Shown here in pieces: positions 12,032-17,891 of a stretch of 64,000 bases of DNA (positions within the stretch are counted from its first letter, which is position 1; each line of letters opens with the position of its first letter). The notes beneath the pieces were generated by a model. That model was given only the letters and a program-made list of their open reading frames with translations, did not search any database and had not been told where the DNA came from. This DNA comes from Stratiformator vulcanicus. GTDB lineage: Bacteria > Planctomycetota > Planctomycetia > Planctomycetales > Planctomycetaceae. Location: positions 2,395,712 through 2,459,711 of the forward strand of contig NZ_CP036268.1 in the NCBI RefSeq assembly GCF_007744515.1. Direction: 5' to 3'. The position numbers and the translations under genes were made by a program.

Positions 12032-13825
12032 ATGTACCATCCTAATTTGCCTCTGGTTGCCCGAGACGGGCAGACTCTTCGCGTTGTCGGCGTTTGCCGG
12101 ATCAGCACCGAACATCAGGACGCAAAGAGCCTGCAAGACCAAGAGGCCCTCTATCGCAGCTGGGTTGACGAGAACTACGACGGCGCCGTCGAGTTCCAAG
12201 TGATTTGCAGTCGAGGTAGCGGCGAGCTTCTCGAAACACGTGAGCAGCTTCAGTTGATGGAACTGGTCGAGTCTGCCACCTGCGACCTTGTCATCGTGGA
12301 AGACCTCGGCCGTATCTGCCGGCGATTCTTTGCACATTCAATCTGTGAAAATGCACAAGATACCGACACTCGCGTGATCGCACTGAATGACAATGTCGAC
12401 ACGGCGAACGAAGGCTGGGAAATCAATTCATTGTTCTCATCCCTTCGGCATGAGTCCTACAATAAGGATACGAGTAAACGGATTAAGCGTTCCCATTTGA
12501 GCCGATTCCAAAAGGGGGGAATCGTCCAATGCTTACCCTATGGCTATCGCAAGCCTCATCCTGGAGCCAACGATGAAGAGTGCTGGGTAGTTCCAGAGGC
12601 TCGCCCTGTCTGGGACGAAGTGTTTCGCCGGCTGGAGGAGGGACACTCGAATGCCGAGATCGCCGATTGGTTGAACGATGAAAAGGTGCCGGTGGGGCCG
12701 CACGTCAAGAAAAAGAAATGGGATGGAACACTTCTCGGCCAGAATATCCATAACCCGATCCTCAAAGGGGTCCGCGAACGCAACCGTCGCGAAACCAAGC
12801 GTGAGAATCGAACGGGTCGTCGTATATCAGTGAAGGCCCCTCCCGAAGCGCTTCTTCAGCGGGACTGCCCGAATCTGGTGATCATAGATCCCGATCGGTA
12901 CGACCTCGTGATACGAGCAGTGGATGCACGGAACGCACATTACGCTCGTGGCAGAAAGGCTGCCGCTGATAGCCGTAAGGGCGTGCCCCGAAAGCGGACG
13001 GTCAGGCCTGGTCAAAGCCTGTCGTGCGGCATTTGCGGGCGGGTTCTTTACTATGGCGGCCACGGGCAGAACGATCGCTTCATGTGTTCAGGAGCTCGCG
13101 ATCATCATTGCTGGAATGGAGTGACCTGTTCCGGGTTCGATACTTCGCGAAAGGTTCTCGCGGCCGTCATCGGACATCTACGCTCCCAAGCGACGTTCAT
13201 TGACGAGCTCCGCAACTCCATTGAACTGGAGCTACAAAAGGCCTTTGCAGCCGATAACGATCGCCTGACCGCGATCAACAAGCAGCGCACGGAGGTTGCG
13301 AAAGAAATTGACAATATAACTTTAGCCGTTGCTAAAAGCGGGGGCTCGAACGCGTTGCTTGGACGTCTCTCGCAATTGGAGAACGAAGAGCGGCGAATTC
13401 AGCTTGAACTTGATAACCTCCATCGGAGACGACAGCCATTACCACCATTGCCCTCAGAGGAAGAATTGAACCAGATGATCGGCCGCCTTGCCGACGAGGT
13501 CGACCGAACATCTCCCGAGTTTCATCGGATCATGTCTGCTTTGCTGCCTGATGCGACGGTCATGCCGGTCCGCCAATGCCTCGGCAACGGCCTCGGCCTT
13601 CGATTAACGGGCTTGCTGCATCTTGTGGAGATCGTACCTGGTTTGGCAACGAAGCTTGATCTCTCCGCGGAATCCTACACAGTGCCGATTGAGCTGGACC
13701 TTTTCGATCCGCCACAACCAGTCGTAATCCGCGAGGATGTCATCCGATTGACGGAAGAAAATCAGAAAGAACGTGATATCGCCAAGCGCCTGCACGTGAC
13801 TCAGCCCGCCGTCAAGAACGCTTAG
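12032..13825 (+). CDS. Large serine recombinase, ends at an in-frame amber stop
   Basis: This 597-residue site-specific recombinase has the resolvase/invertase N-terminal catalytic domain. VVGVCRISTEHQDAKSLQDQE holds the nucleophile Ser25, and CDLVIVEDLGRICRR is the conserved region with active-site arginines. A recombinase domain follows (QKGGIVQCLPYGYRK...ILKGVRERN), then a zinc ribbon (LSCGICG...CSGARDHHCWNGVTC), then a long coiled coil (about residues 390-470). The frame ends at TAG 13823-13825 after RLHVTQPAVKNA. Translation past this codon stays open for 43 more residues (KLHRKMQELGLADPY... to TGA at 13955-13957), and this tail looks like the normal C-terminus of planctomycete recombinases. 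The gene may therefore be slightly truncated by a point mutation (for example CAG to TAG); the catalytic part is intact. Confidence 0.9.
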   Translation: MYHPNLPLVARDGQTLRVVGVCRISTEHQDAKSLQDQEALYRSWVDENYDGAVEFQVICSRGSGELLETREQLQLMELVESATCDLVIVEDLGRICRRFFAHSICENAQDTDTRVIALNDNVDTANEGWEINSLFSSLRHESYNKDTSKRIKRSHLSRFQKGGIVQCLPYGYRKPHPGANDEECWVVPEARPVWDEVFRRLEEGHSNAEIADWLNDEKVPVGPHVKKKKWDGTLLGQNIHNPILKGVRERNRRETKRENRTGRRISVKAPPEALLQRDCPNLVIIDPDRYDLVIRAVDARNAHYARGRKAAADSRKGVPRKRTVRPGQSLSCGICGRVLYYGGHGQNDRFMCSGARDHHCWNGVTCSGFDTSRKVLAAVIGHLRSQATFIDELRNSIELELQKAFAADNDRLTAINKQRTEVAKEIDNITLAVAKSGGSNALLGRLSQLENEERRIQLELDNLHRRRQPLPPLPSEEELNQMIGRLADEVDRTSPEFHRIMSALLPDATVMPVRQCLGNGLGLRLTGLLHLVEIVPGLATKLDLSAESYTVPIELDLFDPPQPVVIREDVIRLTEENQKERDIAKRLHVTQPAVKNA

Positions 13826-14003
13826 AAGCTGCATCGGAAGATGCAGGAGCTTGGTTTAGCCGACCCCTACCAGGTACTCACGGAGCCTCCGGACGGTACA
13901 AGGCTCAGGCGACATCTGCATCGGCGGTACAAATTCCGCCATTCCGATGACGATTGATAACCGCCGCCAAAGACTGCAATTTCATTCCCTTAACGATCAG
14001 GAG

Positions 14004-14980: not shown

Positions 14981-15029
14981 CATGCGCTGACTGACAACAT
15001 CATCAATTTCTAAACCAGGGAACGAACCT

Positions 15030-15260
15030 ATGAAGATCATGCTGATTAACAACGACGGTGGCGGATTCGCGGACTGGGTCGAAGTGGCTGATGGCACCAC
15101 GACCTCGCAGCTGTTCGCCAAGCACATTCCCCACGGGTCGCCGCGGGACTACCTCATCCGTGTCAATCGCCTTCCCGCTTCGGCGGAGCAGGAACTGACC
15201 GAGGGCGATCGCGTCTCGATTACGCCGACCAAGATTGAAGGAGCTGTTCACGCGGCGTGA
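15030..15260 (+). CDS. Ubiquitin-like modifier, ThiS/MoaD-like beta-grasp protein
   Basis: This 76-residue protein has the length and pattern of a beta-grasp modifier: a first strand [13 protein letters not shown], a helix around [11 protein letters not shown], then [11 protein letters not shown] and a last strand [13 protein letters not shown]. It lies directly upstream of E2-, JAB- and E1-like genes, so it is the predicted substrate that is adenylated by the E1 and passed to the E2. The C-terminus reads KIEGAVHAA, not the usual diglycine. Conjugation would need trimming to the Gly by the neighbouring JAB peptidase, or use of an unusual end. The ATG at 15030 has AGGGA about eight bases upstream. 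A MoaD/ThiS-type sulfur carrier is an alternative, but the cassette argues for protein conjugation. Confidence 0.82.
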
Positions 15261-15284
15261 CGCCCTCACTTTCACCAACCACCG

Positions 15285-15320
15285 CAGCCGGGTCGACGCA
15301 TGCCGTTGGCCCGGCTGCTT
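15285..15320 (+). terminator. Intercistronic hairpin between Ubl and E2 genes
   Basis: CAGCCGGG (15285-15292) pairs perfectly with CCCGGCTG (15310-15317) across a 17-base loop, followed by CTTTC. The E2 ribosome binding site (AAGGAG) comes 9 bases later. It may attenuate or stabilise the transcript within the cassette. Confidence 0.5.
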
Positions 15321-15338
15321 TCATTAAGGAGACCAACT

Positions 15339-16343
15339 ATGGAGACCAGAGAGGCCGCCCGAGCGGCTCTCAAGATGCACGAACGGCTCCGGCAGCGGCA
15401 CGAGGCGCACGCCCCGGTCGAATTGCCGGAGCGGATGTGGGATGAGTGCCGTGACTCGCTGCGATTAAGTAACCGAGCCCGATTGCTGAAGCACCCGCTC
15501 GCGGCACTCCGCCTCAGGCGGCAGTTTCGAGGCCGACTGATTAATCTGATCGACGTCCTTGACGATCAGCGACGGCAGCTCAACGAGGAGTTCGCGGGAC
15601 AGCGATTAATGTCGCCGTACGAGATCGCCCTTGACTTGAAGGCTCTCGAACACGACTTCCCGGAAGTCGAGATCGATTTCGGCTCATGCATCATCTCGGT
15701 CACGACGGAACCGGTCGAACTGGAAGGCCTCTATCTCGGTCCGTTCCGGGTTAAGTTCTGTTGGAAGTCGCTGGCCCGTTCGCAGCCTTACATTGTCGAG
15801 GCTCTCGATCCGCATCCGGCCGCGTGTGACAGCGACTGCCATCACCCGCACGTTCAGAACGGGGCACTCTGCGAAGGGGACGCCCGGTTGGCGATCGCGA
15901 AGGCGATTGCCGAAGGACGCCTGGCCGACTTCTTCCAGATCGTGGGCAGCGTGCTTGCGACCTACAACTCGGCGAGTCCCTACGTCTCGGTCGAAGACTG
16001 GGACCGTCCCGAATGCAGCTGCGGCGACTGCGGCAGCGGCATCGATGAAGAGGACGCGTGGGGCTGCGAAGGCTGCTCCACGACGATCTGTGATGGCTGC
16101 CGGGAACGCTGCGTCGACTGCGACGGCATTTACTGTGCGGCGTGTGTGACCTCCTGCGATGGCGAATGTGGCGAACGTCTCTGTCGCGGCTGTGCGGAGG
16201 ACGGCGAGGGCTACTGCAAGGACTGCCGGAGGGCTCTCGAAGAAGAGCTCGCCGAGCAGGCGGCCGAGGAAGCGGAAGCGAATGCTGCTGAGTCGGCTGA
16301 AGCTTCCGACTCGGTACTGGTTCGAGAGGAGGTGCCGGTATAA
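15339..16343 (+). CDS. E2-like ubiquitin-conjugating protein fused to a RING-like zinc cluster
   Basis: This 334-residue protein sits between the modifier and the JAB/E1 genes. Residues 1-90 are helical and charged. Residues 100-225 follow the E2 plan: strands VEIDFGSCIISV and YLGPFRVKFCW, then the HHPHVQNGALCEGD motif. The last matches the HPN...C active-site region of E2 enzymes, with predicted catalytic Cys178 and HPH at 169-171. Residues 226-296 hold 17 cysteines in CxxC pairs (CSCGDC, CEGC, CDGC, CVDC, CAAC, CRGC, CKDC), as in binuclear treble-clef/RING-like domains that often serve as E3. The C-terminal tail is acidic and Ala-rich. ATG 15339 has AAGGAG upstream. An E2 joined to an E3-like domain in one chain is my inference from motif order; no family search was possible. 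Confidence 0.75.
   Translation: METREAARAALKMHERLRQRHEAHAPVELPERMWDECRDSLRLSNRARLLKHPLAALRLRRQFRGRLINLIDVLDDQRRQLNEEFAGQRLMSPYEIALDLKALEHDFPEVEIDFGSCIISVTTEPVELEGLYLGPFRVKFCWKSLARSQPYIVEALDPHPAACDSDCHHPHVQNGALCEGDARLAIAKAIAEGRLADFFQIVGSVLATYNSASPYVSVEDWDRPECSCGDCGSGIDEEDAWGCEGCSTTICDGCRERCVDCDGIYCAACVTSCDGECGERLCRGCAEDGEGYCKDCRRALEEELAEQAAEEAEANAAESAEASDSVLVREEVPV
16327..16342 (+). promoter_or_regulatory. Strong ribosome binding site before an AUA start (JAB gene)
   Basis: AGGAGGT (16327-16333) is a near-perfect ribosome binding site inside the last codons of the E2 gene. Six bases later comes ATA (16340-16342), which overlaps the E2 stop TAA as ATAA. An ancestral ATGA overlap would give both a TGA stop and an ATG start at this exact place; one G-to-A change explains both. 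Confidence 0.6.
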
Positions 16344-17014
16344 GACGGGATGCTCCGATTGATCTCTCCGCGGCCGCTTTAAGATTCACGCCTTACGCCT
16401 GGGCAAAGCTGCTGTTCTTAAGAGAAGCCGTTGATGTCGAGGTCAGTGGCTTCGGGATCACGCCCGCTGACGACCCGCTCTGCGTCGAGGACATCGTCCT
16501 CGTGCCGCAGACGGGTGAGACAGCCTTCACCTCGATGGACGATGTCGGCGTGGCCGACTTCTTCGACGAGCAGGTCGAACTCGGTCGCAGCCCGGCCGAG
16601 TTCGCACGGGTCTGGATTCACACGCACCCGGGTCGTTCACCGACACCGAGCGGCGTGGATGAGCAGACGTTCGACCGCTGCTTCGGCCGGGATGACTGGG
16701 CGGCGATGTTCATCCTCGCCGAGAACGAACGGTGCTACGGCCGGCTTCGCTTCGGCCACGAGCCGGGCTTCTCGCTCGACCTCGGGGCCGACGTGACCTT
16801 CGATCATCCGTTCGAGGGCACCGATCACGAGTCGTGGCAGGCTGAACTGGATGCCAATCTCACGGTGCTTGAGCCGCAGACGGTCTGCGGCCCGGACCTC
16901 GTCGACCGGGATGAATTCTTCGACGAACAGAACTTCGACTGGGACTGGAGGTGGGAGGATGAGAAGCCGTTTAATGCGGCAGAGCGGGCTGGTGCCCGAG
17001 GAGAGGCTTATTGA
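16340..17014 (+). CDS. JAB/JAMM metallopeptidase (deubiquitinase-like), AUA start
   Basis: This 224-residue zinc isopeptidase of the JAB/MPN+ family is predicted to trim the modifier or remove it from targets. The JAMM motif is complete only if the frame is read from 16340: Glu34 (VEVSGFGIT), His94 and His96 (WIHTHPG) and Asp107 (PSGVD), with exact HxHx10D spacing. Conserved N-terminal text ([25 protein letters not shown]) lies before the first GTG at 16502, so a start there would lose the catalytic Glu. Between the upstream in-frame stop (16298-16300) and 16502 there is no ATG, GTG or TTG. The AUA at 16340 with AGGAGGT is the best start; ATT at 16358 is an alternative. The 3' end overlaps the E1 gene by 56 bases. 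Confidence 0.8.
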
Positions 17015-17621
17015 CTCGCCGGTAACGGTGATCGGCGTCGGAGCGATCGGCCGGCAGGTTGCCCTTCAGGCGGCGTCGCTCGGCGTGCCGACCCTGCAAT
17101 TAATCGACTTCGACACGGTCGATGAGACGAACGTCTCAACGCAGGGGTACCGACAGCAGGATGTCGGCCGATTAAAGGTCGATGCCGTGCAGGACGCGAT
17201 CCGTGAGATCGACCCCTCGATCGAAGTGCAGAGAATCGCCGACCGCTTTCGCAGTCGGCAGGAAGTTCATCGAGCGGTGTTCTGCTGCGTCGACTCGATC
17301 TCGGCCCGGTCGGCGATCTGGAAGGCCATTAAGGACCGCTGCCGCTTCTGGTGTGATGGTCGGATGCTGGCGGAAGTGATCCGCGTGCTCGCTGTGTCGT
17401 CGCATGACGATCACCCGCGGTACGAAGCGACGCTATTCACCCAAGACGAGGCTCAAGCCGGCAGCTGCACGTCCCGCGGGGTGATCTACACCGCCCACAT
17501 CGCCGCGGGCTTAATGCTGCACCAGTACGTCCGCTGGCTGCGCGGCATCCCGACGGAGCCGGAGCAGACGCTGAACTTAACGGCCGCGGAACTTTCCATC
17601 GGCTGTCCTATTAAATGCTGA
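16959..17621 (+). CDS. ThiF-family E1-like adenylyltransferase
   Basis: This 220-residue E1-like enzyme would activate the C-terminus of the modifier with ATP and pass it to the E2. It has the Rossmann nucleotide-binding start [20 protein letters not shown], then [17 protein letters not shown] with the Asp that binds ATP ribose, then DVGRLKVDA. Later [14 protein letters not shown] and [17 protein letters not shown] follow; the Cys in the last segment is a candidate for the thioester. I chose ATG 16959 because GGAGG lies seven bases upstream; it overlaps the JAB gene by 56 bases, which suggests coupling. At 220 residues it is a minimal E1 with no added domains. The Ubl-E2-JAB-E1 order supports a conjugation pathway. 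Confidence 0.85.
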
Positions 17622-17676
17622 TGAAGTAGTTCGGCTGAGCCGCGTGGCGAAGCCAAAACGAACGACTTAATCACAC

Positions 17677-17704
17677 AGGCCGCTCCCGAAGGGGGCGGCC
17701 TTTC
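17677..17704 (+). terminator. Terminator hairpin after the E1 gene
   Basis: AGGCCGCTCCC (17677-17687) pairs with GGGGGCGGCCT (17691-17701), with one mismatched or G-T position and a GAA loop, followed by TTT. It lies 55 bases after the E1 stop and ends the main cassette transcript or attenuates the small ORFs that follow. Confidence 0.75.
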
Positions 17705-17729: not shown

Positions 17730-17891
17730 ATGAAGTGCAATGACCTCAATCGTGCCGTCGCCCGAGCGACCGGCGATACCGCCCAGACTATTAAACACCG
17801 CGGCTTCGGCCCGGACCTTAACGAGCAGGCTGGCCCCTATCTCGACTGGGACATCGCCGACCTCGAACGAAAAACGCCGCTATTTCCGTAG
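17730..17891 (+). CDS. Small protein (53 residues) next to the ubiquitin-like cassette
   Basis: ATG 17730 has AAAAGG about nine bases upstream. The protein begins MKCNDLNRAVARATGDTAQT, continues with IKHRGFG and ends DWDIADLERKTPLFP. The first half looks like a short helix-turn-helix-type segment (RAVARATG...TIK). I know small planctomycete proteins with a similar RAVAxATGxxxxTIxxxGF start, but not their function. It follows the E1 gene after a hairpin and may be a cassette accessory or a regulator. Confidence 0.55.
   Translation: MKCNDLNRAVARATGDTAQTIKHRGFGPDLNEQAGPYLDWDIADLERKTPLFP

Follow-up and report, generated by a model that had tools for sequence, protein, structure and literature searches.

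The window analysed here is a stretch of 64,000 nucleotides from the genome of Stratiformator vulcanicus (RefSeq assembly GCF_007744515.1; a single contig of 5.23 Mb, NZ_CP036268.1, positions 2,395,712 to 2,459,711). At 15030-17621 on the plus strand, it carries four genes head to tail for a ubiquitin-like modifier (Ubl), an E2-like protein, a JAB peptidase and a ThiF-type E1. This cassette is probably a self-contained, working system of Ubl conjugation and deconjugation that is carried by mobile DNA and by viruses. The reading is built on the gene set, the gene order, the conserved catalytic residues, purifying selection and the relatives on phage contigs, all of which are features of the sequences themselves. 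Because relatives of the whole set occur on metagenomic contigs of tailed phages, the results suggest that ubiquitin-type machinery is encoded by bacterial viruses and mobile DNA themselves.

Genes of the cassette and their conservation

The features of the cassette in the window were as follows.

15030..15260, plus strand: Ubl, a ubiquitin-like (beta-grasp) modifier precursor of 76 amino acids (aa), from the AlphaFold2 (AF2) model, Foldseek and ThiS family matches
15231..15245, plus strand: K68-I-E-G71-A72, predicted processing site (cut after G71) before a variable tail, from conservation
15339..16343, plus strand: E2-like conjugating protein with a C-terminal multi-zinc region, 334 aa, from the AF2 model and Foldseek against the PDB
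15843..15872, plus strand: predicted E2 active site, H169-P170-H171 ... C178, from alignment conservation and sequence
16020..16226, plus strand: E2 zinc region with 16 conserved Cys (C228-C296), the first six spaced like those of FYVE/RIM fingers
about 16349-17014, plus strand: JAMM/JAB peptidase, open frame of about 220 aa, with E31, H91, H93, S101 and D104 conserved
16959..17621, plus strand: ThiF-type E1, 220 aa, overlapping the end of the JAB gene (Pfam ThiF, 7.2e-28)
17466..17468, plus strand: predicted E1 catalytic cysteine C170, invariant in 23 rows

E2 relatives were sought in 392 genomes of the phylum and were found in 16, mostly of the same family. Thirty loci were examined (the window, L016-L020 and L047-L070), and the same-strand order Ubl-E2-JAB-E1 was present in 25 of them, three in the window genome and 22 in 13 other genomes of the phylum; a gene order conserved to this degree is more than chance. 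L016 was counted among the 25 complete loci, though its E1 is only partly readable owing to a masked stretch. L018, L019 and L020 are relics or fragments, and L069 and L070 have E2-JAB-E1 with no Ubl detected. The last two are distant loci from another family of the phylum, and their zinc pattern differs. Alignments were prepared for the E2 (A1, 25 rows, leaving out the near-identical L016 and L017, the relic L019, and L050, which has an in-frame stop), the Ubl (A2, 24 rows, without L016 and L019), the JAB (A3, 24 rows, without L016, L017, L020 and L063) and the E1 (A4, 23 rows, without L016, L019, L020, L048, L052 and L053).

When the four window proteins were searched singly against Pfam, the ThiF match of the E1 was the only one above cut-off; ThiS for the Ubl (0.067) and Prok-JAB for the JAB (0.0068) fell below the cut-offs, and the window E2 alone gave no match. 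The gene identities were settled because the rows of the family-wide alignments match ThiS and Prok-JAB: at E<=1, 23 of 24 Ubl rows matched ThiS (best 3.2e-6) and all 24 JAB rows matched Prok-JAB (best 3.3e-6). The original prediction, made from the letters of the window, had described a Ubl, an E2-like protein with HPH...C, a JAMM peptidase and a ThiF E1 in a same-strand array, forming a complete conjugation cassette whose modifier is ThiS-like; all four genes lie at the positions that it gave, and the family data back the description.

The Ubl model has a beta-grasp fold with a predicted local distance difference test (pLDDT) score of 89.9. Its top Foldseek match was Caldiarchaeum ubiquitin (2.7e-4), and three of the 1435 matches were at E<=0.001. 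All 24 rows have K-[IV]-[EQ]-G-A (K-V-Q-G-A in L066) as the end of the core, after which come a further 3-36 residues as a tail; K68, G71 and A72 are invariant. This uniform end plus tail is a new finding of the analysis. Because both are present in every aligned Ubl, the modifier is predicted to be a single-glycine precursor that is trimmed after G71 by the Rpn11-like JAB, and the single-glycine K-[IV]-[ED]-G end is a simple signature by which more cases can be sought.

In the E2-like protein, P170 and C178 do not vary over the 25 rows, and conservation of H169 and H171 is at least 90%. Eukaryotic E2s carry HPN at the place of this HPH. The model reached a pLDDT of 88.7 and a predicted template modelling score (pTM) of 0.65. 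Foldseek against the PDB gave 168 matches at E<=10, of which the best 50 listed were all E2-type chains, with a lowest E value of 0.069 and probabilities reaching 0.94, and VIA-align placed UBE2S at Z 7.1 with a root-mean-square deviation (rmsd) of 4.1 over 127 aligned residues, tied with unrelated helical chains. An E2 fold with a catalytic cysteine is thus well supported at moderate fold scores; it was accepted from the consistent Foldseek list together with the HPH/C178 motif, no single score being decisive. The original prediction had named Cys178 as the active site, correctly, and had made the E2 fold of the middle protein its point of failure; that fold is predicted. Up to 16 conserved cysteines occupy the C-terminal region, in which model residues 240-290 match the RIM zinc finger 2cjs_C (Z 6.2, rmsd 2.4, 51 aligned). 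Matches of the E2 profile to RING, B-box and FYVE chains were weak (best 0.0022).

In the JAB, H91, H93, S101 and D104 are invariant and E31 is at least 90% conserved over 24 rows; Glu34 and His94, proposed earlier as active-site residues, are E31 and H91 counted from a start three codons upstream. The best PDB match of the JAB profile was the Rpn11-like 6fjv_A of Caldiarchaeum (2.1e-7). The L016 copy has a GTG at the site where the window and L017 frames have no ATG, GTG or TTG. Upstream of 16502 the JAB codons vary synonymously between copies and no ATG, GTG or TTG is present in the window or L017, for which reason translation is proposed to start, probably, at an unusual codon.

The E1 has, besides its invariant cysteine, conserved nucleotide-site residues, and its profile matched ThiF, MoeB, UBA5 and Uba1. 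It scored 75.5 bits against the ThiF/MoeB equivalog (cut-off 275) and 36.9 bits against PRTRC_ThiF, where the curated cut-off of 144.75 was not reached.

Copies, mobility and neighbouring genes

Near-identical copies of the cassette lie at 503-506 kb and 1578-1581 kb of the window genome; a further copy, at 438-439 kb, is partial, and what lies at 551-553 kb is a deleted relic. The copies differ in patches, mostly by synonymous changes, as after gene conversion. The ratio of nonsynonymous to synonymous rates (dN/dS) between the window and its copies was 0.137 (L017) and 0.127 (L016), and the cassette, as judged from these sequences, is under purifying selection.

Two neighbouring features of the window are listed here.

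17730..17891, plus strand: sm1, a small companion gene of 53 aa, DLNRAVARATGE...RGF family, present in 24 of the 25 complete loci
12032..13825, plus strand: large serine recombinase, 597 aa, nearby and outside the duplicated block (Pfam Resolvase 8.2e-10, Recombinase 6.4e-9)

That the cassette is mobile, as had been proposed, is borne out by the three near-identical copies and the relics in one genome, by TniB and TniQ genes upstream of the L049 cassette, and by serine recombinases near the cassettes of L054 and L068 (33% and 32% identical to that of the window). The further claim of a recombinase-borne element did not hold: the recombinase is real, yet it lies outside the shared block and does not delimit an element. 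It was rejected as the sole carrier, since the start of the shared block, at about 14839/14953, lies beyond the recombinase, of which the L016 and L017 copies have nothing. Given TniB/TniQ in L049 and the recombinases in L054 and L068, several vehicles carry the cassette. The recombinase frame of the window stops at a TAG and is then open for 43 more codons (13823-13957), and its C-terminus may be cut short.

In 15 of the 25 loci, a conserved 320-aa protein and an AAA ATPase that scores as CDC48/PAN-like are encoded upstream, and most of these loci also have DUF1257 and DUF2997 genes; in L049 (4792-8752), DUF1257, DUF2997, the AAA ATPase and the 320-aa protein form an upstream block that is conserved in many loci. 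The other 10 loci, including the window, are without the AAA ATPase/320-aa block.

A CRISPR array of about 33 units and a cas4g/cas1g gene (614 bits) lie about 5-8 kb from the L016 cassette copy (L016 15513-17870 and 18386-19753), and a single repeat similar to that of L016 adjoins the L017 copy (L017 7146-7181). The tetramer TTAA was observed 16 times at 15000-17700 of the window against 1.6 expected (300 dinucleotide shuffles, maximum 6); it is the most over-represented tetramer in sampled DNA of the window genome (1.89-fold) and not so in the relatives' loci. TTAA was rejected as a targeted change between copies, the differences lying in patches across many motifs.

Relatives on viral contigs

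A search of IMG/VR with the E1 profile recovered 40 loci on metagenomic contigs of 25 to 208 kb. Three pairs share identical E1s (L075/L076, L089/L090 and L092/L093), so that the 40 contigs represent 37 distinct E1s, and none of the records was rated 90% complete. Profile matches at E<=1e-3 were obtained for the Ubl in 28 contigs, the E2 in 36, the JAB in 39 and the E1 in 40, with all four genes in 28. The strict HPH...C.G motif was kept in 30 of the 36 viral E2s and the FYVE-like Cys pattern in 21; a loose JAMM motif was present in all 39 JABs, the CT-cysteine context in all 40 E1s (strict pattern in 33), and 24 of the 28 Ubls had the [KR]-x-[EDQAK]-G end. Four contigs have tandem Ubls, with three full domains per frame in L089 and L090 and two in L097 and L098, which is by sequence a polyubiquitin-like layout. 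An AAA relative was found within the fetched flank (about 8 kb) in 13 of the 40 loci. On the 179.6-kb contig of L079, a single residue follows KIEG at the end of the Ubl, and the gene after the AAA is weakly similar to the 320-aa protein (4e-5), in an arrangement as in L049.

Terminase matches were obtained with PF03237 in 12 of 34 records and with phrog_2 in 15 of 40, and portal matches with phrog_2739 in 9 of 40. A terminase or portal was present in 22 of the 40 contigs, and in 16 of the 28 having all four genes; among these 16, G393 rests solely on a sub-cut-off terminase match. In G398 the terminase (1.7e-23) stands beside the portal (8e-10) in a head-gene region. Tail sheath PF04984 was matched in one of 34 records, below cut-off, and the T4-type capsid PF07068 in none of 34, with the control likewise silent. 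Since phrog_2 also gives matches in 11 of the 14 control genomes and in every one of the 14 phylum genomes, a terminase match alone does not make a contig a virus.

A quick E1 tree was built from 66 rows (63 different) and has long branches; direction was not inferred from it. One clade (99*) holds 23 chromosomal and three viral rows, with other viral lineages around it, and the viral and chromosomal labels need six changes, at least three of them forced by starred branches. Near the chromosomal cassettes in 14 genomes, no terminase match was found. Placement of the cassette in a prophage of the window genome found no support, as terminase matches in the 14 genomes were on other contigs or more than 300 kb away, a comparison that is limited by draft assemblies. 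By tblastn, the window E2 had no match in the phage or plasmid collections and the L079 E2 none in the phage collection; among the matches listed for these collections, there were only ThiF-level ones, at most about 38% identical.

ThiF relatives were present in named phages (46 and 52 records). In the crAss-like phages cr128_1 and cr85_1 and Flavobacterium phage Fpv3, a gene of JAB type, matched by the profile at 1e-4 to 7e-3, lies ahead of ThiF, as do genes in which E2-like and Ubl-like motifs are seen by eye only; the E2-type genes of the crAss-like phages gave no profile match. In Xanthomonas phage PhiXhv-12, ThiF follows an 892-aa protein with, by eye, HPH...C and a Cys-rich end. Such ThiF genes beside JAB- or E2-type genes (L118-L121, from crAss-like, Flavobacterium and Xanthomonas phages) are annotated as 'thiamine biosynthesis protein' or hypothetical.

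Proposed mechanism, alternatives and known systems

We infer the chemical steps, the targets and the purpose as follows. The cycle would begin with cleavage of the Ubl precursor behind K-I-E-G71 by the Rpn11-like JAB; the minimal E1 would adenylate G71 and then hold the Ubl as a thioester on C170, and the E2, with HPH in place of the eukaryotic HPN, would receive it on C178. The zinc tail fused to the E2 may bind targets or serve as a built-in E3, removal of the tag may also fall to the JAB, and in loci having an AAA ATPase this enzyme may unfold or extract tagged proteins. The module would be used in conflict between genomes, by phages or mobile elements against the cell or rival elements. 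If this is true, bacterial viruses and mobile elements carry complete ubiquitin-type tagging, equipped with a dedicated protease and in many cases an unfoldase. They would then offer small, cultivable models in which to study how AAA extraction and tandem ubiquitin precursors were combined with ubiquitin and E2-E3 fusion, and the use that phages make of protein tagging could be put directly to the test.

Several results weigh against a working conjugation cassette. For the E2, no Foldseek match of the model reached E<=0.001 (best 0.069), two unrelated helical chains ranked above the first E2 in VIA-align, the E2 profile found no E2 among PDB sequences, and Pfam gave no E2 match in any of the 25 rows. 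Among viral E2s, 15 of 36 are without the zinc pattern and 6 of 36 without the strict HPH...C.G. The JAB frames of the window and L017 have no ATG, GTG or TTG before 16502, which is already past the catalytic Glu, and dN/dS against the truncated copy L020 was 0.301. Because all AAA matches in the window genome are distant (33% over 213 residues), AAA-driven extraction cannot be general.

Four further explanations were weighed. The cassette may be a viral module for hijacking or virion maturation, with phages tagging proteins of the host or of the virion; the cassettes on chromosomes would then be captured copies. Short of an even chance, this has in its favour the 28 four-gene contigs, the 22 contigs with terminase or portal and the label changes on the E1 tree; it must be set against 18 of 40 contigs without a terminase or portal match, the metagenomic origin of the contigs, the phrog_2 matches in control and phylum genomes, the quick, long-branched tree and the lack of terminase matches near the cassettes in 14 genomes. 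Antiviral defence of the host, which the original prediction had raised and which would be of the Bil or type II CBASS sort, is possible too: a tag on phage proteins or on a partner would stop infection. E1-E2-JAB-Ubl operons include known defence systems, the cassette is multi-copy, patchy and mobile, and one copy lies near a CRISPR array and cas4g/cas1g gene, but PADLOC and NCBIfam gave nothing beyond generic E1/JAB matches, the cassette is without an effector or sensor gene, and relatives sit on phage contigs. The strongest context found, carriage on phage contigs, agrees with viral use no less well than with host defence; the two are about equally likely and not mutually exclusive.

That the cassette of the window genome is a decaying remnant without present function appears unlikely: its JAB lacks a recognisable start before the catalytic Glu, extra copies are truncated or deleted and no close AAA homologue exists, but the full copies have dN/dS of about 0.13-0.14 and their differences are mosaic and mostly synonymous. 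A ThiS-ThiF-like sulfur carrier and activating enzyme for cofactor or tRNA synthesis, a use that the original prediction had set against its own, is very improbable: ThiS and ThiF are the top family matches of the Ubl and E1, but there is no terminal Gly-Gly, an E2-like partner with a conserved cysteine is present alongside, and the E1 lies far below the ThiF/MoeB equivalog cut-off. Conjugation and deconjugation by a mobile and viral cassette is kept as the preferred reading. A broader version of it, that tailed phages encode an autonomous Ubl system with single or tandem Ubls, a one-domain E1, an E2 bearing a zinc E3-like part, an Rpn11-like protease and, in 13 of the 40 loci, an AAA ATPase nearby, as the viral counterpart of ubiquitin/p97, and that planctomycete chromosomes keep captured, spreading, multi-copy cassettes, is put forward tentatively, at close to even chances.

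Among known systems, E1-E2-JAB-Ubl operons have been described already (PMC1779556, in its available text). No complete phage-borne Ubl operon is described in the available parts of PMC1779556, PMC11354881, PMC5654768, PMC4197634, PMC13373217, PMC7159879, PMC7824862 and PMC12660748, which does not by itself prove absence in print; the jumbo-phage survey among them (PMC7824862) uses the word 'ubiquitin' twice in its available text and mentions neither JAB nor ThiF. The Gly-Gly end of the ThiS-ThiF and MoaD-MoeB sulfur carriers is not found in any of the 24 Ubl rows. PRTRC and crAss-like phage clusters likewise have ThiF adjoining a JAB-type gene, whereas the E1 of the cassette is far below the PRTRC_ThiF cut-off. 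The JAB and E1 profiles matched Citrobacter BubCD at 0.15 and 3.8e-9, weak or generic values, and in BubCD both form one 458-aa chain where the cassette has separate genes. The Bil operon (BilABCD) shares Ubl, E1, E2 and JAB in one operon. According to the available text of PMC11354881, BilA is a double Ubl, BilD an E1 with an inactive and an active adenylation domain plus a Cys domain, and BilB has a CEHH motif, whereas the cassette has a single 76-aa Ubl, a one-domain 220-aa ThiF E1 and HPH-C. PADLOC gave generic E1-E2/JAB matches plus a weak BilD; of the kinship with Bil and related families proposed earlier, the shared gene kinds stand and an assignment to Bil does not.

Related Planctomycetes operons are credited by PMC4197634, in the part available, to Burroughs, Iyer and Aravind (2011), and the likeness to their planctomycete, actinobacterial and acidobacterial ubiquitin-type operons is known only through that citation. 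The nearest PDB matches for both Ubl and JAB come from the archaeon Caldiarchaeum subterraneum, whose Rpn11-like enzyme trims pro-ubiquitin (PMC5654768, available text). The modifier there ends in Gly-Gly, not in a single Gly, and a separate small RING protein is present, whereas in the cassette the zinc part is fused to the E2 and the E1 has only 220 aa. With the Caldiarchaeum operon (E1/E2/RING/Rpn11) the cassette shares, at the sequence level only, a tailed pro-modifier and an Rpn11-like JAMM beside E1 and E2.

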